DNA of 64,000 nt from Tenacibaculum lutimaris (GTDB taxonomy: Bacteria > Bacteroidota > Bacteroidia > Flavobacteriales > Flavobacteriaceae): assembly GCF_003610735.1 (NCBI RefSeq), contig NZ_RAQM01000010.1:124001-188000 (forward strand), read 5' to 3'. Position 1 is the stretch's first letter, and every line of letters starts with the position of its first letter. Under the pieces are notes generated by a model. The model searched no databases. It was not told the origin of the DNA and saw nothing but the letters and a program-made list of their open reading frames with translations. The translations under genes were made by a program, and so were the position numbers. Below, one piece after another: positions 5,257 to 34,744 of this stretch.

Positions 5257-8085
5257 ATGAAAAAAGTCGTATTAGGACTATCCCTGGCCTTCATTATATC
5301 CACGGGGTATAGTCAAGCTTTAAAAGAAACACAACAAAAGCTAAACAAAAAAGAAAAAGTAACTGCTATGAACATTCCGACTGATCCTTCAGTTAAGATA
5401 GGAAAACTATCAAATGGAATGACCTATTACATCAAACAAAACCCTAAACCAGCCAATAAAGTAGAGCTACGATTAGTTGTAAATGCAGGTTCAATCTTAG
5501 AAGATGATGACCAATTAGGGTTAGCTCACTTCATGGAACACATGAACTTTAATGGTACCAAAAACTTTAAAAAGAATGAGTTGGTAGATTACCTACAATC
5601 AATTGGGGTAAAATTTGGTGCACACTTAAACGCTTATACAGGTTTTGATGAAACTGTATACATTTTACCTATTCCAAGTGATGATAAGGAAAAACTTGAA
5701 AAAGGTTTTCAAATTCTTGAAGATTGGGCACACGGAGCCTTATTAGAAGGAAAAGACATTGATGAAGAACGTGGTGTTGTTTTAGAAGAATACCGTTCTC
5801 GTAGAGGAGCTGACAGCCGTATGTTAGAAAAATACTTACCAAAAGTAATGCATGGTTCTAAATATGCCGAAAGGTTACCTATCGGTACTAAAGAAAATAT
5901 AGAAAACTTTAAACATGAAAGTATTCGTCGCTTTCACAAAGATTGGTATCGCCCAGATTTAATGGCTGTGGTTGCTGTTGGTGATGTAAGTGTTGAGATA
6001 TTAGAAGAAAAAATCAAATCACATTTTAGTAAAATACCTGCAGTTAAAAATCCTCGTAAAAGAGAAGTTGCTCCATTAAAAAATCATAAAGAAACTTTTA
6101 TTGCTATTGAAGCTGATAAAGAAGCTCCTTTTGCAAGTGTACAGTTAATGTATAAAGATTACGATGAAGCAAAACCTGAAACAACTGTTGCTGATTACAG
6201 AAATTCAATTGTTCAGTCTCTATTTGCTCAAATGATTAATAATCGTTTAGATGAATTACGTAATAGTGAAAACCCTCCTTTTGTTTACGGATTCAGTTAT
6301 CATGGTGGAACCTGGGCTCGTGGTAAAGAAGCTTATCAATCAAGAGCAAGTGTAAGTGCCGATGGTCAATTAAAAGGATTACAAGCTTTATTAGATGAAA
6401 GTGAACGTGTTAAAAGATACGGTTTTCAACAAGGAGAATTAGATCGTGCAAAAATGAACGTTAGTGCTCGTATGGAAAAAGCTTTTAAGGATAAAGACAA
6501 AAGAGAATCTAACAGAATTATTAGTCAATATGTAAATAATTTCTTAGAGCAAGAGCCAATTCCTGGTATTGAATGGGAGTACCAAGCACACCAAATGTTA
6601 TTACCTTCTGTAAAATTAGAAGAAGTAAATAACCTTATTAAAAATTATTTGCATGACGATAACCGTGTTGTAGTAATTACTGGACCTAAAAAAGTAGTTA
6701 CCGAGCAACAAGTTTTAGACGCTTTAAACAACGTTAAAACTAAAGAATTAAAACCTTATGAAGATAAAGCTGTTGCTGCTTCTTTAATTACCAAGCAACC
6801 AATACCTGGTGCTATTACAAAGGTTACTGAAAATAAAGACTTAGGGACCAAAACCATGATTTTAAGCAATGGCGCTAAAGTTACTTATAAGAAAACTGAT
6901 TTTAAAAATGATGAAATCTTATTTGAAGCATTTAGTTTTGGTGGAACTTCGTTATATTCTGATGAAGAGTTAAAAGCTACTGCTTTTGCTAATAGCGGAC
7001 TTTCAGAAGCAGGTATTAACGGTTTCTCTAAGACAGATTTATCTAAAATGATGTCTGGTAAAATCGTTCGTGTTTCTCCTTACATTTCTAGTTTAAGTGA
7101 AGGATTTAGAGGTACTGCTACTCCTAAAGATTTAGAAGAGTTATTCCAAATGGTACACTTATACTTTACCTCTTTAAATAAAGATGAAAAAGCATTTGGT
7201 TCTTATGTAAACAAACAAAAAAGCTTCTTAGGAAACTTATTAGCTAGCCCTAATTTCTTCTTCCAAAAAGAAATGAGTGAATTTACTTATGGAAAAGATC
7301 CTCGTTATACTGGTTTTCCTTCTCCTGAAAAATATGAAGCTGCTGATTACAACTTAGCTTATCAAAAATACCAAGAGCGTTTTGCAGATGCAGGAGACTT
7401 CAACTTCTATTTTGTTGGAAACGTTGATGAAAAGAAACTTGCTGAATACGCTACTAAATATATTGCTGGTTTGCCAGGAAAAAATTCAAACGAAAAGTAT
7501 AAAGTTACTGATTTTAGACCTTTATCAGGTTCTCACACTAAGGTGGTAGAAAAAGGAAAAGATCCTAAAAGTAATGTTCGTATTACTTACCAAGGAGAAG
7601 CGAATTACAATAAAAAAGATGCCTTAGCCTTTAAAGTTTTAGGAGAAGTAGTAGGAATTAAGTTAATTGAGAAACTACGTGAGCAAGAAGGTGGTGTTTA
7701 TTCTGCTGGTGCTCGTGGTAGTTTAAACAAAATGCCTTACGGTTGGTATAACTTTACAATTTCATATCCTTGTGCTCCTGAAAATGTTGAAAAGTTAAAG
7801 AACATTTCTGTTGCTGAAGTTGCTTCTGTGGTTAAAAATGGGCCAACTAAAGAAGATTTAATGAAAGCTCAAAAAGGAATGATTGCTGACTACAAAGAAG
7901 ACCTTAAAAAGAATCGTTTTTGGTTAAGTACTATTAAAAATGTGGATTATCAAAATAATGATGCTTCAGAAGTAGCTTCTTTTGAAGAAAGTGTAAACTC
8001 TTTAACTACAAAAGATATTCAAAAAATAGCTAAAAAATATTTAACTAACGGATATATCTTAGGTATTTTAAATCCAGAGAAATAA
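5257..8085 (+). CDS. M16-family zinc metallopeptidase (insulinase/pitrilysin-like), periplasmic
   Basis: This 942-residue protein has a signal peptide (1-19, ending STGYSQ). The inverted zinc motif HxxEH is present as HFMEH at residues 91-95, and the third ligand Glu lies in the ERGVVLEEYRSR region near residue 175. Four M16 half-domains fit the length: an active N-terminal pair and an inactive C-terminal pair that closes the clam-shell chamber (RLREQEGGVYSAGARG near 810). M16 enzymes degrade unfolded peptides, and in Bacteroidota this type probably recycles peptides in the periplasm. The gene is monocistronic, isolated by near-identical terminators on both sides. Confidence 0.92.
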   Translation: MKKVVLGLSLAFIISTGYSQALKETQQKLNKKEKVTAMNIPTDPSVKIGKLSNGMTYYIKQNPKPANKVELRLVVNAGSILEDDDQLGLAHFMEHMNFNGTKNFKKNELVDYLQSIGVKFGAHLNAYTGFDETVYILPIPSDDKEKLEKGFQILEDWAHGALLEGKDIDEERGVVLEEYRSRRGADSRMLEKYLPKVMHGSKYAERLPIGTKENIENFKHESIRRFHKDWYRPDLMAVVAVGDVSVEILEEKIKSHFSKIPAVKNPRKREVAPLKNHKETFIAIEADKEAPFASVQLMYKDYDEAKPETTVADYRNSIVQSLFAQMINNRLDELRNSENPPFVYGFSYHGGTWARGKEAYQSRASVSADGQLKGLQALLDESERVKRYGFQQGELDRAKMNVSARMEKAFKDKDKRESNRIISQYVNNFLEQEPIPGIEWEYQAHQMLLPSVKLEEVNNLIKNYLHDDNRVVVITGPKKVVTEQQVLDALNNVKTKELKPYEDKAVAASLITKQPIPGAITKVTENKDLGTKTMILSNGAKVTYKKTDFKNDEILFEAFSFGGTSLYSDEELKATAFANSGLSEAGINGFSKTDLSKMMSGKIVRVSPYISSLSEGFRGTATPKDLEELFQMVHLYFTSLNKDEKAFGSYVNKQKSFLGNLLASPNFFFQKEMSEFTYGKDPRYTGFPSPEKYEAADYNLAYQKYQERFADAGDFNFYFVGNVDEKKLAEYATKYIAGLPGKNSNEKYKVTDFRPLSGSHTKVVEKGKDPKSNVRITYQGEANYNKKDALAFKVLGEVVGIKLIEKLREQEGGVYSAGARGSLNKMPYGWYNFTISYPCAPENVEKLKNISVAEVASVVKNGPTKEDLMKAQKGMIADYKEDLKKNRFWLSTIKNVDYQNNDASEVASFEESVNSLTTKDIQKIAKKYLTNGYILGILNPEK

Positions 8086-29136: not shown

Positions 29137-30157
29137 GAAAATTATTTTAGGAAGTATTGTAATTATTTTTTTAATTGGCGGAATTATTGGCTTTAATTAC
29201 TATCAAAAAATATTTGGAAAAGCAGTTACCAAAGACGGTGCTGTTTTTATTGGCTCAAACGCTTCTTTTACAGATGTTCAAAAACAACTTACTGATTTTG
29301 TAAAACATCCCGAAAATTTTGTTTGGGTGGCAGAAAAGAAAAAATTCACCCAACCTAAAGGAGGAAAATACTTATTAAAAAAAGGAATGAGCATGAATGA
29401 CGTGGTAAACCTTTTACGTAGCGGAAATCAAACTCCAATCACTTTATCATTTAATAATCAAGATACCTTAGAAAAGCTCGCAGGAAGAATTGCTGAACAA
29501 ATTGAAGCTGATTCTACAGCCTTATTACAGGCAATGACCAATACTAACTTTTTATCTACTAATAATTTCACAGAAAAATCAGCTCTAGGAATGTACATTC
29601 CAAATAGCTATGAGTTTTACTGGAATACTTCTGCTGAAAATTTCCGTGATAAAATGTTGCGTGAATACAATCGTTTTTGGACTTCTGCTAGATTAGAAAA
29701 AGCTAAAAAACTAAACCTTTCAAAAGAAGAGGTAATAACATTAGCTTCAATTGTTCAAAAAGAAACAGCTAAAAAAATAGAGCGTCCTATTGTTGCTGGT
29801 TTATACTTAAATAGATTAAAAGATAATTGGCCTTTACAAGCAGACCCTACCGTTATTTATGCTATTAAAGAAATTAAAGGTCATGATTTTGTTGTAAAAA
29901 GGGTTTTAAACAAAGATTTAGTTATAGACTCTCCTTACAATACTTATAAAAACACAGGACTTCCTCCTACTCTAATTGCAATGCCAGATATTTCATCTAT
30001 TGATGCTGTTTTAAACCATCAAAAACACAATTATTACTATATGTGTGCAAGTGTTGACAAGATTGGTTTTCATGAATTTGCTAACTCTTTAGCGCAGCAT
30101 AATAGAAATGCAGTAAAATATCAACAATGGATAAATCAACAAGGAATAAAGAGATAA
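29129..30157 (+). CDS. mltG: Endolytic transglycosylase MltG
   Basis: This 342-residue protein has an N-terminal inner-membrane helix (residues 5-22) and the YceG/MltG domain, with the catalytic Glu212 in SIVQKETAKK and the motif LQADPTVIYAI near 256. MltG cuts nascent glycan strands inside the chain and is thought to set their length by ending polymerisation. The product lies in the periplasm, anchored in the inner membrane. It ends the dapF-GNAT-mltG operon in a hairpin that overlaps its stop codon. Confidence 0.94.
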   Translation: MNKKIILGSIVIIFLIGGIIGFNYYQKIFGKAVTKDGAVFIGSNASFTDVQKQLTDFVKHPENFVWVAEKKKFTQPKGGKYLLKKGMSMNDVVNLLRSGNQTPITLSFNNQDTLEKLAGRIAEQIEADSTALLQAMTNTNFLSTNNFTEKSALGMYIPNSYEFYWNTSAENFRDKMLREYNRFWTSARLEKAKKLNLSKEEVITLASIVQKETAKKIERPIVAGLYLNRLKDNWPLQADPTVIYAIKEIKGHDFVVKRVLNKDLVIDSPYNTYKNTGLPPTLIAMPDISSIDAVLNHQKHNYYYMCASVDKIGFHEFANSLAQHNRNAVKYQQWINQQGIKR

Positions 30158-30170
30158 ACTCTTTATTCTT
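30142..30170. terminator. Hairpin between convergent mltG and thioredoxin-like gene
   Basis: A 10-bp stem GAATAAAGAG / CTCTTTATTC with loop ATAAA overlaps the mltG stop. The T tail is weak, so termination efficiency is uncertain. Confidence 0.55.
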
Positions 30171-30684
30171 CATAAAAGTGTTTGTAAGGTTTACCCGATA
30201 TTATTTTTAGAACATCTTTTTCTAAAGATTCAACAGGGAATTCTACAAATCTACCTAACTCTTTATTTCTTTTATAGAAAATAAAAGTAGGTACCCTAAA
30301 AACACCATAACCTTTTTCTATACCTTTTGCTTTTTTCTTGTGATCTACTGCTATTATTTCTATATTTTCCTCTGAAAAACTCGCTTGTTTTAACATTTTC
30401 AAAAGTAAAGGAATTTCACGTTTACTATCTCCACACCATAACCCAATAAATGCTTTTATTTTTACATTCTTGAGATTTTTTTGAAATGTAGAAATTAAAG
30501 TATCTTCTATTTCATATGCTTCATAACGAGGTTTAAACCAGGTACTATTGTTTGTTTCTAACAAATTATCTTGAGTAATTACTCCTGTGAATTCCCTCCC
30601 AACTTCTTGTATTTTCACAGCTCTTTTATTGGAAGAGCAAGAGAAAAACAGAGAGAATAATATTATATATATTTTTCTTCTCAT
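30163..30684 (-). CDS. Thioredoxin-fold lipoprotein with a single-Cys WCGDS site
   Basis: The start is taken at MRRKIYIILFSLFF (ATG at 30682-30684), 7 nt after the upstream receptor gene. The lipobox SLFFSCSS lipidates Cys16. The thioredoxin-like fold is seen in VKIKAFIGLWCGDSKREIPLLLKML and the cis-Pro strand YGVFRVPTFIFYKRNKELGRF. The usual CxxC is reduced to WCGDS, so the second redox Cys is missing; this variant also occurs in bacterial thioredoxin-family proteins of unknown function. It is the last gene of the receptor operon and probably acts in the periplasm, perhaps on the small Cys peptide encoded at 34119-34325. Confidence 0.75.
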   Translation of the reverse strand: MRRKIYIILFSLFFSCSSNKRAVKIQEVGREFTGVITQDNLLETNNSTWFKPRYEAYEIEDTLISTFQKNLKNVKIKAFIGLWCGDSKREIPLLLKMLKQASFSEENIEIIAVDHKKKAKGIEKGYGVFRVPTFIFYKRNKELGRFVEFPVESLEKDVLKIISGKPYKHFYEE

Positions 30685-30691
30685 TTTTACA

Positions 30692-33337
30692 CTAAATTTT
30701 GTAAACAATTTTAAACACTATGGTTCTTGGAAAAACCAACTCTGTACGCTCTCTGAATAATATATCTGAAAGACTCGAGGTTACACGTTCTTTATTATCT
30801 AACAAGTTATTCGCTTTTATTTCAAAACCCCAAGGACTATCTTCTTTTTGATAAAAAACAGAGGCATTCATTTGATTAAAAGAGTTTTTTGTTTTTGAAG
30901 TTTCATTTTGATAATAAGAGTACATGTTTTCTCCTATAAAAATCCAGTCTCCTATCTCATAATCCACCTGAAAGTCAAACTTAGTTCTATAGGAAGTATT
31001 ATTGCTAATAAAGCTATTCTTATTTACATTATAGTTTTGACTCAAAGAAACATCAAAATTAGGTCCATTAATATACACTGACTTAAACTTTAATCTTGCC
31101 GAATAACTGTCGTCATTTGCTTTTTCCTCTTGCTGATTAAATAACGTTATATAACTTCTATTTCCATAGTTAACCCCTAAAGAGGCTCTCCAGTATTTAT
31201 AATTATAAATAGTTTTAAAATCAAGAGAAAGACCTTTTTCAGGAGTTGCAATATTTATAGGGCTGTTATAAAAATAGATATTATCTGAAATAAAAGTATT
31301 CTGAATTTTATTGGTTCTTAACCTGTAACTTACTGTTGGGTAAAAACTCCATCCATAAGTTTTGAACCTTCTATAAGATAAACGAAAATAGTGATAATTG
31401 CTCTCTGTTAAGTTACTATTTCCTTGATAAATACTATTAAAGTTGATTAACTTTTTATTCCTGTTTAGTTGATTGTAGCCAGGAAAATCATTTGTTTTTC
31501 TATAATAAAAAACAAGCTTCTTATTTGCATCAAAATCCCATTCCAAATTAACACTAGGTAAAAGCTTTTGTAATGTTCTGTTTTTTTCTAATTCGAATTG
31601 CTTATTAAACCTATTATAGTTTAAATACTCTAGTTTAAATGTTAGAAAAGCATCTCCGATTAATTTTTTGTACTCTGCAAAAAAAGAAGAAAATACCTCT
31701 TTATTAGAGTTTTCACTATCAAAATCATCAAACTTATCTAACTCATCGCTTCCTATCAATTGCCCAAGGTTTGAATTATAGGTATTGAAGTATAACTCAT
31801 TTTTAACTCCAAAATACAAATGGTTTCTTGGATTCACTATCCAAAAATGTTTTAATAAAGTTTTAGCTTGATAATTCTCTGAATTTATTTTTTGTCTGAC
31901 TAAAATATGTTCTTCAGCCTGATCTATAGGTAAACTGTTTGAAAAAATATTTTGAGTACTGAACCAATTTTGACTTTCATTATTTTTTGAAAAAACAAGA
32001 TTTATCTTAGCTTGAGAAGTATGGTCTCTTGAAAACTTCTTTTCTATCTTTAAATTAGATTTTAATGATACATTATCTACCTTATCACTCAAGTTATATA
32101 GTAAATCTTCAGAATTAAAATTACTTTCAGTTTCTGACTTATTATTAGCTGAAGATATTTCTACTTTATTTTCAAACTTAATACGAACATCTTCATTTGG
32201 TTTTGATTTTAATTCTATTTTACCTAACAACATATTCTGTTTTTTATCATCAGAAACACGTCTCGTTTCCTCAATAGTATCGACTAAATAATTTTGGTAT
32301 GAACCCTCAAACGAATGCGTATTATCTTTAAGAGCTATTACGAATGCACTCCAATCATTCTTTTCACTTGTACTGAACTGTAAATTCAGCCCTCCAAATA
32401 AATGTTTATTTTCATTATACTTTTTTTCCTTTAACAATCTAACAATAGGTGAATTGTACAAAGATGAAAAGGAGTTTATATCAAAACCTCCTTCATAAGT
32501 GATATAATCTTTTACAGTAAAAGACTTATCTCCTACATTATTAAAATCTCCAATAAAGCTATAATTTATTTTTTCTGAATACCTAAACAAGGTTGGGTGT
32601 ACTACATATCTCTCTTTTACTCCTCCGCCTACTTCGATATCTCCAAAGGCAAACTTCTTTTTATCTTCTTTTAAATTAATATTTAAGGCGACATCTTCTG
32701 ACGTTTCTAAACCTTTTAATAAATCACTTTCATGATAATCTTCTATAACCTGAATCTCATCAATTACATCAGCAGGTATATTATTAACAGCTAGTTTACT
32801 ATCACCTGTAAAAAACTTTTTATTTTCAACCAATACAGTGGTTACCTTTTTACCTTTAACAGTTACATTTCCTTTTCTATCCACCTCTACTCCAGGTAAT
32901 TTTTTAAGCACTTGACGTAGCTTACGTTCTTTACCATTAACAAATGCATCTGCTCTATAGGTAGTAGTATCTTTTCTAATTTTTATCGGTTCTCTGTAAT
33001 TAATAATAACTTCTTGTAGCTCGTTTGGATCCTCTTTTAAAATAAAATCTTTAGTTATAGGCATGTTTGCAACCAAAACATCTTCTTTTAACGTGATATA
33101 GCCAATAAAACTTACCGTTATTTTATATGTTGCATTTTTCGTTAAACTTAACTTATAATTCCCTTTATCATCTGTTACTGTATAGGTAAAGCGAGCCCCC
33201 TCTGTTAAAGGTTTTGCTATAATGTTAGCATTCCCTAACATTTCATTTTCTCCTTTTACAACCCCAGAAACTATAACTTGTGCAAATATATTTTTTGTAA
33301 ACAAACAAGCCAGTACTAATAACAAACTACATCTCAT
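30692..33337 (-). CDS. TonB-dependent-receptor-like outer membrane protein with carboxypeptidase-like domain
   Basis: This 881-residue protein has a signal peptide (1-19, ending KNIFAQ). A carboxypeptidase-regulatory-like beta-sandwich lies at about 20-110 (VIVSGVVKGENEMLGNANIIAKP; YKITVSFIGYITLKEDVLV). A plug-like region follows at about 112-220 (LRQVLKKLPGVEVDRKGNVTVKGKKV; VIDEIQVIEDYHES), then a large beta-barrel ending in FKIVYKI. No TonB box can be recognised with certainty. Relatives import or export large ligands, and many pair with a GLPGLI gene, as here (GLPGLI ends 6 nt before). Ligand unknown. Confidence 0.85.
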   Translation of the reverse strand: MRCSLLLVLACLFTKNIFAQVIVSGVVKGENEMLGNANIIAKPLTEGARFTYTVTDDKGNYKLSLTKNATYKITVSFIGYITLKEDVLVANMPITKDFILKEDPNELQEVIINYREPIKIRKDTTTYRADAFVNGKERKLRQVLKKLPGVEVDRKGNVTVKGKKVTTVLVENKKFFTGDSKLAVNNIPADVIDEIQVIEDYHESDLLKGLETSEDVALNINLKEDKKKFAFGDIEVGGGVKERYVVHPTLFRYSEKINYSFIGDFNNVGDKSFTVKDYITYEGGFDINSFSSLYNSPIVRLLKEKKYNENKHLFGGLNLQFSTSEKNDWSAFVIALKDNTHSFEGSYQNYLVDTIEETRRVSDDKKQNMLLGKIELKSKPNEDVRIKFENKVEISSANNKSETESNFNSEDLLYNLSDKVDNVSLKSNLKIEKKFSRDHTSQAKINLVFSKNNESQNWFSTQNIFSNSLPIDQAEEHILVRQKINSENYQAKTLLKHFWIVNPRNHLYFGVKNELYFNTYNSNLGQLIGSDELDKFDDFDSENSNKEVFSSFFAEYKKLIGDAFLTFKLEYLNYNRFNKQFELEKNRTLQKLLPSVNLEWDFDANKKLVFYYRKTNDFPGYNQLNRNKKLINFNSIYQGNSNLTESNYHYFRLSYRRFKTYGWSFYPTVSYRLRTNKIQNTFISDNIYFYNSPINIATPEKGLSLDFKTIYNYKYWRASLGVNYGNRSYITLFNQQEEKANDDSYSARLKFKSVYINGPNFDVSLSQNYNVNKNSFISNNTSYRTKFDFQVDYEIGDWIFIGENMYSYYQNETSKTKNSFNQMNASVFYQKEDSPWGFEIKANNLLDNKERVTSSLSDILFRERTELVFPRTIVFKIVYKI

Positions 33338-33343
33338 ATAAAT

Positions 33344-34051
33344 TTAATCAACAGTTACTTTCCTTGCTTTTCTCATTAATACGACCATTCTTTCTGGTGT
33401 TATTTTTGTTGCTTCTTTCAGCTTAGGTATTTTAATATTCTTTTTGTGATTGAGTTTAATTTTTGTTGCAGTATACCTAGCAACATTTACTTTGTCTAAT
33501 TGCAATATTAACCCTGGTAATCCGCCATTTCCAGCAGGCCCAAAAGAGGCAGGAATTTCTGGTGTATACCATGCAATATAAACTATATATCTTTTATCTT
33601 TTCCTACACTAGTTCTTTTATTTAGTTGTTTTCTTATTGCCTTGTAACAAGTATAACCTTCTATTACTTTAGTATCCTCATTTAGCTCCCAACCTACCAT
33701 ATTTGGAAAACTTACTGTATATATTTTACCACCAATATCTTGAGTAACTAAAGCTTCTTTAGTAAATGAATTTTGATACCAAGTATAGTTTCCACCTATT
33801 AAGACGTCTGCTAAACGACTATACCTTTTGTTTATTGGTATGTTTTTATTTTTTTTGAAAATAGATTCACCCTTATTGTACTTTAGTGTAAATGTCTTTT
33901 GTTGCAATTCATTACCTACTCCCATTACTAAAGGGTTGTCTAAATTATTTTGCTTTATAGACTCTACATTATACGTCACCTCTCCAGTTTGGGTATAAGC
34001 TTTTATTAAAAATAAAAACCATAAGAATATAGGAAATATTTTATTTTTCAT
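33344..34051 (-). CDS. GLPGLI family protein
   Basis: This 235-residue protein has a signal peptide (1-20, KAYTQ). It contains the family name-giving motif, here slightly varied as GPAGNGGLPGLILQLDKVN near residues 178-196. It also has the core VIEGYTCYKAI (near 128), where the Cys is conserved, and YIVYIAWYTPEIPASFGP. GLPGLI proteins are periplasmic or outer-membrane-associated, restricted to Bacteroidota, and of unknown function. They often sit beside a TonB-type receptor, as here. Confidence 0.92.
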   Translation of the reverse strand: MKNKIFPIFLWFLFLIKAYTQTGEVTYNVESIKQNNLDNPLVMGVGNELQQKTFTLKYNKGESIFKKNKNIPINKRYSRLADVLIGGNYTWYQNSFTKEALVTQDIGGKIYTVSFPNMVGWELNEDTKVIEGYTCYKAIRKQLNKRTSVGKDKRYIVYIAWYTPEIPASFGPAGNGGLPGLILQLDKVNVARYTATKIKLNHKKNIKIPKLKEATKITPERMVVLMRKARKVTVD

Positions 34052-34118
34052 TCTATTTTTTTTTTAAATGACTAACGGAACTCAAAACAAGCTCCATTAA
34101 TCATTTAATATTTACCAA

Positions 34119-34325
34119 TTATCCTTTACAGTTTTGAAACTCTATATCATAAAGTACATCATACTCTGCGGCTGATAATTCATCTCCAAAAACTGCCTCT
34201 GCATCTCCTACTGCTTCACAAGCTTGTTCATGACACTTGTCACTAAAATACTGATAATCTACACTCACAGCATTAGCAGTTGTAAAAGCACCTAAAAAAA
34301 GTGCTGATAAAATTACTTTTTTCAT
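34119..34325 (-). CDS. Small secreted Cys-containing peptide, first gene of the GLPGLI-receptor operon
   Basis: This 68-residue product has a signal peptide (1-19, GAFTTANA). The mature peptide of about 48 residues is acidic and carries three cysteines (Cys31, Cys36 and Cys66) in SDKCHEQACEAVGDAEAVF and EFQNCKG. I recognise no family. Its promoter and position make it the first gene of the operon that continues with GLPGLI (67 nt gap), receptor and thioredoxin-like lipoprotein. It could be a ligand, a bacteriocin-like peptide or a metal-binding factor. The odd Cys number would leave one free thiol or permit a dimer. Confidence 0.6.
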   Translation of the reverse strand: MKKVILSALFLGAFTTANAVSVDYQYFSDKCHEQACEAVGDAEAVFGDELSAAEYDVLYDIEFQNCKG

Positions 34326-34362
34326 AATAAAAATTGTTTTTAAAATTATTTAATAAAAAAAA

Positions 34363-34388
34363 CTATGGTTTGTTATAGTCAGCCATAG
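34363..34388. promoter_or_regulatory. Small inverted repeat in the leader of the peptide operon
   Basis: CTATGG (34363-34368) and CCATAG (34383-34388) are a 6-bp inverted repeat with a 14-nt spacer. They lie in the leader between the operon promoter and the peptide gene. This could be a hairpin or an operator; evidence is weak. Confidence 0.35.
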
Positions 34389-34416
34389 CACTACCGACTA
34401 CATTGCAATGTTCTCC

Positions 34417-34446
34417 CAAAAATATAATTCCCAAACACTTACACAA
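34417..34446 (-). promoter_or_regulatory. Bacteroidota promoter of the peptide-GLPGLI-receptor operon
   Basis: On the minus strand TTG (34446-34444), 19 nt, then TATTTTTG (34424-34417) matches the -33/-7 consensus exactly in sequence and spacing. It gives a leader of about 85 nt before the small peptide gene, long enough for post-transcriptional control. Confidence 0.7.
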
Positions 34447-34543
34447 AAAAACACAACCCCTTTTGCAACTAAGGGTTTTCCCTTAACCCCAAAAGTTATA
34501 ACTTATTTTTTATATTAGCACTGAAAATTAGAAAAAGTAAACT

Positions 34544-34744
34544 ATGGAAAGAGTAAGTATTATTTTAGAGAAAATTAAGAAAGAAAGAGAAAAAGAAGGC
34601 TTATCTCAATATGAGTTTGGCAAAAAAATAGGATTGAGTCAAAATGCTTATTTTAAATTAGAAACAGGGAAAACTAGACTTGACATGTATCGATTTCTAA
34701 CTATATGTAAAGTTTTAAACATATCTCCAGAAGAATTCCTTTAA
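34544..34744 (+). CDS. Small XRE-family helix-turn-helix regulator
   Basis: This 66-residue protein is essentially one Cro/CI-type HTH domain: KIKKEREKEGLSQYEFGKKIGLSQNAYFKLETGKTRLDMYR (residues 8-48; the HTH core is SQYEFGKKIGLSQNAYFKLE), then NISPEEFL. There is no sensor domain, so it probably acts alone or as an operator-bound repressor. It is divergent from the peptide-GLPGLI-receptor operon, 218 nt from it, and may regulate it. Evidence for that is position only. Confidence 0.85.
   Translation: MERVSIILEKIKKEREKEGLSQYEFGKKIGLSQNAYFKLETGKTRLDMYRFLTICKVLNISPEEFL

Follow-up and report, generated by a model that had tools for sequence, protein, structure and literature searches.

We analysed a window of 64,000 nucleotides (nt) from Tenacibaculum lutimaris (contig NZ_RAQM01000010.1, positions 124,001 to 188,000), which carries a four-gene operon encoding a small exported cysteine peptide, a GLPGLI protein, an outer-membrane protein (OMP) and a thioredoxin (Trx)-fold lipoprotein. 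The four genes lie on the minus strand, separated in this order by 67, 6 and 7 nt, and an XRE regulator gene is divergent to them (Table 1). An earlier note on this DNA had described the operon, the divergent XRE gene, the promoter and the gaps; when positions and translations were re-read all of this was borne out, and the family scans agree. Other loci and genomes are cited below by L and G numbers.

Table 1. Features of the operon region, in window coordinates.
Feature	Position	Strand	Remarks
Peptide gene	34119..34325	minus	68 amino acids (aa); C31/C36/C66, CHxxAC...Y...C; first gene of the operon
GLPGLI (Porph_ging) gene	33344..34051	minus	235 aa, with Sec-like signal; probably the cognate partner of the peptide
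OMP gene	30692..33337	minus	881 aa; CarboxypepD_reg-like domain, weak Plug, OMP_b-brl_3 barrel
Trx-fold lipoprotein gene	30163..30684	minus	173 aa; LFFSC lipobox-like; WCGDS (CxxS)
XRE regulator gene	34544..34744	plus	66 aa; single-domain, divergent; HTH_3
Promoter TTG-N19-TATTTTTG	34417..34446	minus	TTG at 34446-34444, 19 nt, TATTTTTG at 34424-34417
Perfect palindrome ACATTGCAATGT	34400..34411		just 3' of the -7 box; operator candidate
Inverted repeat CCCTT-N8-AAGGG	34458..34475		between XRE gene and promoter; partly conserved; weaker operator candidate
Terminator-like hairpin	30144..30168	minus	operon end; scan found 3 in the region, 1.6 expected

The N-terminus of the peptide consists of lysines, a hydrophobic core and then ANA, and judged by eye is Sec-signal-like. 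No credible family was found for the window peptide in NCBIfam/Pfam-type scans (best E 0.2 and 0.11; none at 0.05). Membership of a known family was also rejected when 37 peptides were scanned singly against NCBIfam and Pfam, which gave weak matches only. The best of these, AimP_fam (3e-4, four members) and DUF6520 (1e-3, two members), we provisionally take to be similarity in the signal region. The GLPGLI protein is a member of the GLPGLI/Porph_ging family (TIGR01200, PF09697): it scored 126.2 bits against TIGR01200 (cut-off 50), matched Porph_ging at E 1.4e-12 and contains GGLPGLILQL. In the OMP, CarbopepD_reg_2 (E 1.2e-13) is combined with OMP_b-brl_3 (E 1.2e-9), as in TonB-dependent transporters (TBDTs) of the Oar type. 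Plug (PF07715) was weak in this protein (E 0.15) and was seen in four of seven relatives, at best with 0.0027 and always under the gathering score, so dependence on TonB is likely, not certain. The lipoprotein matched Thioredoxin_9 (E 7.3e-9, scanned from a start at 30681, one codon late) and the XRE protein matched HTH_3 (E 2.3e-14).

Homologues of the peptide had been expected to adjoin GLPGLI genes and to share their cysteines, and both expectations held. All seven relatives examined first (L002, L003, L004, L016, L017, L045, L046), of which L016 and L017 come from other genera, are followed by a GLPGLI gene, and an alignment of eight peptides shows C-H-x-x-A-C, one Tyr and the final Cys without variation. 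Among 166 genomes of the same genus, 13 matched the peptide at E 2e-10 or lower, and the identical 13 hold an OMP of at least 49% identity; among the matches listed, the next full-length OMPs reach at most 35%, and G506 has a partial match of 47% over residues 6-286. Fourteen further genomes of the genus gave weaker peptide matches (E 3.9e-6 to 0.01), some of them units beside paralogous OMPs (L120, L122, L123) and others short matches in the signal region. Weak matches are no census: L016, L017 and L018 were opened, and at least one weaker match, G256, later proved to be a real unit. L018 was rejected as a relative because it encodes a different small protein. The genome that holds the window is a near relative of Tenacibaculum larymnensis, in a contig of which (L045) the peptide is 99% identical. 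Compared with G027, the peptide gene has a ratio of nonsynonymous to synonymous substitution rates (dN/dS) of about 0.27 (8 and 7 substitutions) and thus looks like a selected gene.

The wider survey covered 90 regions in which open reading frames (ORFs) were called mechanically. Forty were reached by OMP homologues (L107 and L127 in this batch come from peptide matches in other genera), and 40 by GLPGLI matches from a 397-genome family search, the picks being high-scoring and mostly short frames; an order search supplied the last 10. By one criterion, 62 of the 90 regions carry at least one peptide and GLPGLI unit, 81 units altogether; 13 regions hold two to five, and up to five stand before one OMP gene. 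Within the family, the units span 27 genus labels: the second batch accounts for 23, and g1, g50, g220 and g147 are the others. One additional unit, at L112, was missed by the gene caller and stands outside the correlation tests; there (G458, positions 5746-5949) the Trx gene is absent, and a further CHxxAC peptide precedes a further GLPGLI gene, the second of each at the locus. At L090, L091, L092 and L126 a tandem pair of peptide genes stands before a single GLPGLI gene.

Under a strict rule with the OMP downstream, the leading GLPGLI gene was directly preceded by a peptide in 42 of 49 runs of the first batch, partly chosen for peptide matches, and in 25 of 41 runs of the second, against 1 of 187 other genes (at least 200 aa) and 3 of 262 with unfiltered ORFs. 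A looser operon walk found a peptide in 44 of 51 operons whose OMP scored at least 850 bits, on a profile built from the first batch, in 4 of 11 below 850 and at 5 of 162 control genes. Rates from L107-L127 are inflated, since these loci were selected for strong or weak peptide matches; the regions found by OMP similarity alone (L088-L106) gave 16 of 19 operons with a peptide and those found by GLPGLI matches (L188-L227) 23 of 33. The seven misses in the 850-bit class include L118 (disrupted peptide), L198 (contig end) and L096, where the position ahead of GLPGLI and OMP that a Sec-signal peptide normally takes is occupied by one with a double-glycine-type leader (NITGG; positions 6659-6856). 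These loci bear out the earlier note in so far as peptide, GLPGLI protein and receptor belong together as a single conserved system centred on the exported cysteine peptide. The proposition that every GLPGLI gene has a peptide was rejected. When the top matches of a general GLPGLI model in 118 genomes of the phylum were opened, 21 of 30 loci had a readable GLPGLI gene and in two of the 21 (the window and L142) an exported Cys peptide preceded it; in a second set, 8 of 29 loci with a GLPGLI gene had one before it, the peptide-less GLPGLI proteins being mostly of 270-300 aa. L142 (G657, another family of the class) encodes a 111-aa exported Cys protein of a different type before two GLPGLI genes.

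Only K2, the first Cys and the last Cys are invariant in 37 aligned peptides. The mature parts share two cysteines (C-x3-A ... Y-x2-C) and are otherwise hypervariable. In 73 units, an Ala stands four residues after the first Cys in 51 and a Tyr three before the last Cys in 29; the median spacing from first to last Cys is 34, the net charge is negative in 94.5%, and 40 units have only two cysteines after residue 18. Some peptides of a four-Cys branch read C-x3-C ... C-x3-C (e.g. L095). Mean identity among 30 non-redundant second-tier units was 63% for the OMP, 50% for the signal, 34% for the GLPGLI protein and 24% for the mature peptide, for which shuffled sequences gave 20%.

Between units of one array, compared by global alignment in five of the 13 multi-unit regions, the same layout is clear in L124, L123 and L258. 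In L124, with five units in one genome, the upstream regions were 81% and the signals 76% identical, while the rest of the peptide reached 49% (46% shuffled) and the GLPGLI proteins 56% (51% shuffled); an alignment of this locus with free end gaps gave 87, 80, 2 and 3%, the global figures being the fair ones. The corresponding values for L123 were 81% upstream, 82% in the signal and 53% against 48% shuffled in the rest of the peptide. For L258, which has a different conserved signal, they were 59%, 91% and 50% against 49%. A conserved upstream block of about 140 nt was present in most of 16 upstream regions, which had been picked from the 74 in the set for sharing the words of the block.

Similarity of the mature peptides was correlated with that of the adjacent GLPGLI proteins (Mantel r 0.22 over 62 units, reached in 0 of 1000 permutations), also within one OMP clade of 27 units (r 0.30, 0 of 2000). 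No correlation of the mature peptide with the OMP was detected in either set (r -0.02 and 0.02, respectively). GLPGLI similarity was, separately, correlated with the OMP (r 0.39). Of 84 motif peptides, 73 are followed at once by a GLPGLI gene and three by a second peptide; of a further seven, L100, L203 and L215 look like ORF artefacts and L103, L104, L126 and L207 have the GLPGLI gene slightly downstream. Conversely, 83 of 174 GLPGLI genes follow a peptide directly (four of the set lie at a region edge). The partner thus lies directly downstream, co-varies with the mature peptide and is orphaned more often than the peptide, a pattern of the immunity type that is compatible with immunity and no proof of it: immunity genes show such an asymmetry, and a partner with other uses would too. 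A producer without partners would speak against immunity. G479 (L118) was considered as such a case and rejected, since the damage there extends to the start of the peptide gene in addition to both GLPGLI genes; the OMP is intact.

The lipoprotein had been thought a dedicated redox-like part of the system. As a core partner it was rejected, being confined to the branch of the window: of the 11 fetched loci whose peptide reads CHxxAC or YHxxAC, 9 have its gene (L112 and L116 do not), as do 0 of 79 other regions, the gene lying either after the OMP gene or, in L127 and L107, upstream of the peptide gene. At L107/L017 (G258) two ORFs lie between the Trx gene and the peptide gene; the pair looks like an IS21-type transposase and its helper. 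The WC-x-D-S site is present in 10 of 10 aligned operon copies and in five of five paralogues read, and WCGDS is a C-x-x-S site with no resolving cysteine rather than the CxxC of a thioredoxin. Proteins of the CxxS kind can hold clients by a mixed disulfide. Related lipoproteins were found in 156 of 166 genomes of the genus; in G018, G465 and G468 the sole match is the operon copy.

In a structure model of the window peptide, built from three sequences, residues 21-49 and 52-67 form a helical hairpin, and the mature part has a predicted local distance difference test (pLDDT) score of about 90; judged by residue numbering, C31 and C66 would be expected to lie opposite one another. A Foldseek search of this model against the PDB gave nothing significant. 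Alpha-hairpinin-like peptides are helical hairpins stapled by disulfides; no sequence relation to them was found, and the likeness is a resemblance only. The GLPGLI model, also from three sequences, had a pLDDT of 41 and was not used. The GLPGLI profile reaches one solved protein weakly, the peptide-N-glycosidase (PNGase) 7zgn (E 1.9e-4); PNGases of this kind can have an additional module shaped like a bowl, to which PMC12381499 assigns no role.

At its chromosomal site the cassette is a presence/absence island. In 22 genus loci surveyed at the MltG flank, the window included, 12 sites were empty, with no more than about 450 nt between MltG and the gene found here on the far side of the cassette; the cassette was present in the window and G018, and eight loci gave no readout. 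G017 and G022 (L279, L280) are empty though their MltG proteins are 96% and 94% identical to that of the window. Many paralogous cassettes in L088-L106 adjoin genes of the same sizes (821 and 80 aa, or 190 and 211 aa), which hints at fixed positions in the chromosome. Between the window and T. larymnensis, synonymous divergence (dS) is 0.33 for the GLPGLI gene, 0.06 for the OMP gene and 0.03 for the peptide gene, which suggests local replacement of the GLPGLI allele.

The promoter fits the flavobacterial TTG / TAnnTTTG pattern. Its TAnnTTTG box is present also in G465, G018 and G468; a generic sigma-70 scan showed no excess of sites (22 found, 26.1 expected). The 12-base palindrome ACATTGCAATGT is common to the window and five related XRE-bearing loci (L108, L109, L113, L114, L115). 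It is the sole match with at most one mismatch in the window, where 0.24 would be expected, and one or more turned up in 20 of 100 shuffles, so its weight rests on its conservation. The XRE protein may bind at the palindrome or at the inverted repeat. A TAGTC...GACTA stretch in the 5' leader (34326-34415), conserved in related loci, could form a hairpin.

Gene order, export signals, cysteines, hypervariability, co-variation, orphan asymmetry and the empty site, as read from the sequences, together give good support to a diversifying system of exported peptides and partners; from these we infer a hairpin disulfide, binding, an immunity or adaptor role, a direction of transport and a biological purpose. 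Our explanation, held at somewhat short of an even chance, is a polymorphic exported-peptide system with the GLPGLI protein as cognate periplasmic partner and the OMP as outer-membrane gate, serving antagonism or self/non-self recognition. The peptide would leave the cytoplasm via its Sec signal and fold in the periplasm into a short helical hairpin, with a disulfide from the first to the last Cys. The adjacent GLPGLI protein would bind its particular mature peptide and might shield the producer, as an immunity protein does, present the peptide to the outer membrane, or both. The TonB-dependent-type OMP, which is shared across an array and does not track the mature peptide, would be the outer-membrane gate. 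In the CHxxAC branch the CxxS lipoprotein probably handles the third Cys by a mixed disulfide. Because the signal, and in some arrays the promoter region, stays similar while mature peptide and GLPGLI protein diversify together, units would be swappable and stackable. An export signal that changes little, with an active part and a partner that vary strongly, is what a competition or self-recognition system would be expected to have; antagonism or self/non-self (kin) recognition between related strains seems the most likely purpose. That this holds throughout Flavobacteriaceae, as a class with a constant and a variable block, exchangeable units before one transporter and GLPGLI as specificity or immunity partner, is a tentative proposal to which we give rather less than an even chance.

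Several observations weigh against this explanation. Selection among close orthologues of the peptide is purifying, not positive. The correlation of peptide and GLPGLI protein is modest, joint inheritance of neighbours may explain part of it, and the signal peptide too correlates with the GLPGLI protein (r 0.16; 14 of 1000 permutations gave as much). Among the 14 units with two GLPGLI genes, the second was no poorer than the first at tracking the peptide, with r 0.20 (55 of 1000) against 0.13 (145 of 1000). Mature peptides are mostly acidic, with a mean net charge of -6.9, in contrast to most membrane-active bacteriocins. The contrast of leader and core is weaker in L105 (upstream 52%, signal 88%, rest of the peptide 62% against 52% shuffled) and absent from L256 (48%, 58%, and 48% against 47%). 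L190, L192, L200 and L225 are operons of the OMP class without a peptide by the criteria used, L225 having a truncated candidate. Killing, binding and export are putative.

The GLPGLI protein might instead be only a chaperone or adaptor that passes a Sec-exported peptide to an Oar-like TBDT, for a role at the surface, in the matrix or as a public good. This is unlikely, yet a serious alternative, as the GLPGLI protein tracks both the mature peptide and, separately, the OMP, as an adaptor should, and Oar offers a precedent. Against it, roughly every second GLPGLI gene is not directly preceded by a peptide, a pattern that arrays of immunity genes would better account for, and the hypervariability needs a driver. 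Peptide signalling, with a pheromone sensed through GLPGLI protein and TBDT and with XRE as output regulator, would account for the 19 cases among the fetched loci of an XRE-profile gene divergent to a peptide gene, and polymorphic pairs of pheromone and receptor do diversify together; we consider it improbable, for the window's XRE protein has nothing beyond an HTH domain, and beside many units no XRE gene was called.

The earlier note had also proposed a metal or thiol function. An acquisition system would have the peptide shuttle a metal, a thiol or another ligand back through the TBDT, with the GLPGLI protein as periplasmic binder. TBDTs usually import, and in the branch of the window CHxxAC gives Cys and His ligands and a Trx-fold protein is at hand. 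Such a function found no direct support: two cysteines, which could staple a helical hairpin, are the shared feature, the His and the third Cys belong to one branch only, most units lack CHxxAC, and the mature part lies close to the shuffled level, whereas a shuttle would be expected to preserve the site where it binds. We therefore regard acquisition as very improbable. A coincidental neighbourhood, or an artefact of calling small ORFs, has next to no chance of being right. Small ORFs are easily over-called, a few artefacts stand among those called and the export-signal test is a crude hydrophobicity count, but the rarity of such an upstream ORF at control genes, the invariant cysteines of the 37 aligned peptides and the purifying selection on the peptide gene speak against it.

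Bacteroidetocins, as described in PMC8546649, are small exported peptides with conserved cysteines and a mature length of 42-53 residues. The flavobacterial units are similar in length, with 41-50 residues from four before the first Cys to the end (middle half of 73 units), and one (L096) has a convincing GG-type leader. They differ in that the window peptide and nearly all units carry a Sec-like signal in place of the GG leader, and in the GLPGLI partner, the TBDT-type gene in the operon and the arrays; any killing by them is putative. Oar, a Myxococcus TBDT, is required for export of PopC, and the Oar-type domain layout dominates in Bacteroidetes, according to PMC6434023; the resemblance is hence no proof of export. 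The window OMP shares with Oar an N-terminal carboxypeptidase-regulatory-like domain, but the cargo of Oar is a protease, not a small peptide. The Oar-PopC system is also not known to have a GLPGLI partner. In the literature found, in the parts accessible, GLPGLI occurs in gene lists or annotation remarks with no stated function, and a literature search found no paper for Porph_ging/PF09697/TIGR01200 and NVEALA. Titles and beginnings of abstracts, with bioRxiv and most subscription papers outside the scope, yielded no paper describing such a system. This widespread flavobacterial family is apparently undescribed.

A subset of GLPGLI, a named family for which no stated function was found, is thereby tied to a hypervariable exported peptide and a transporter, which leads to testable hypotheses. 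Whatever the purpose, the layout of constant leader and variable core shows that something drives the diversification of the peptides. If antagonism is true, flavobacteria would have a wealth of untapped disulfide-stapled peptides and the immunity genes to match them, and perhaps also, in a TonB-dependent-type protein, a means of exporting peptides.

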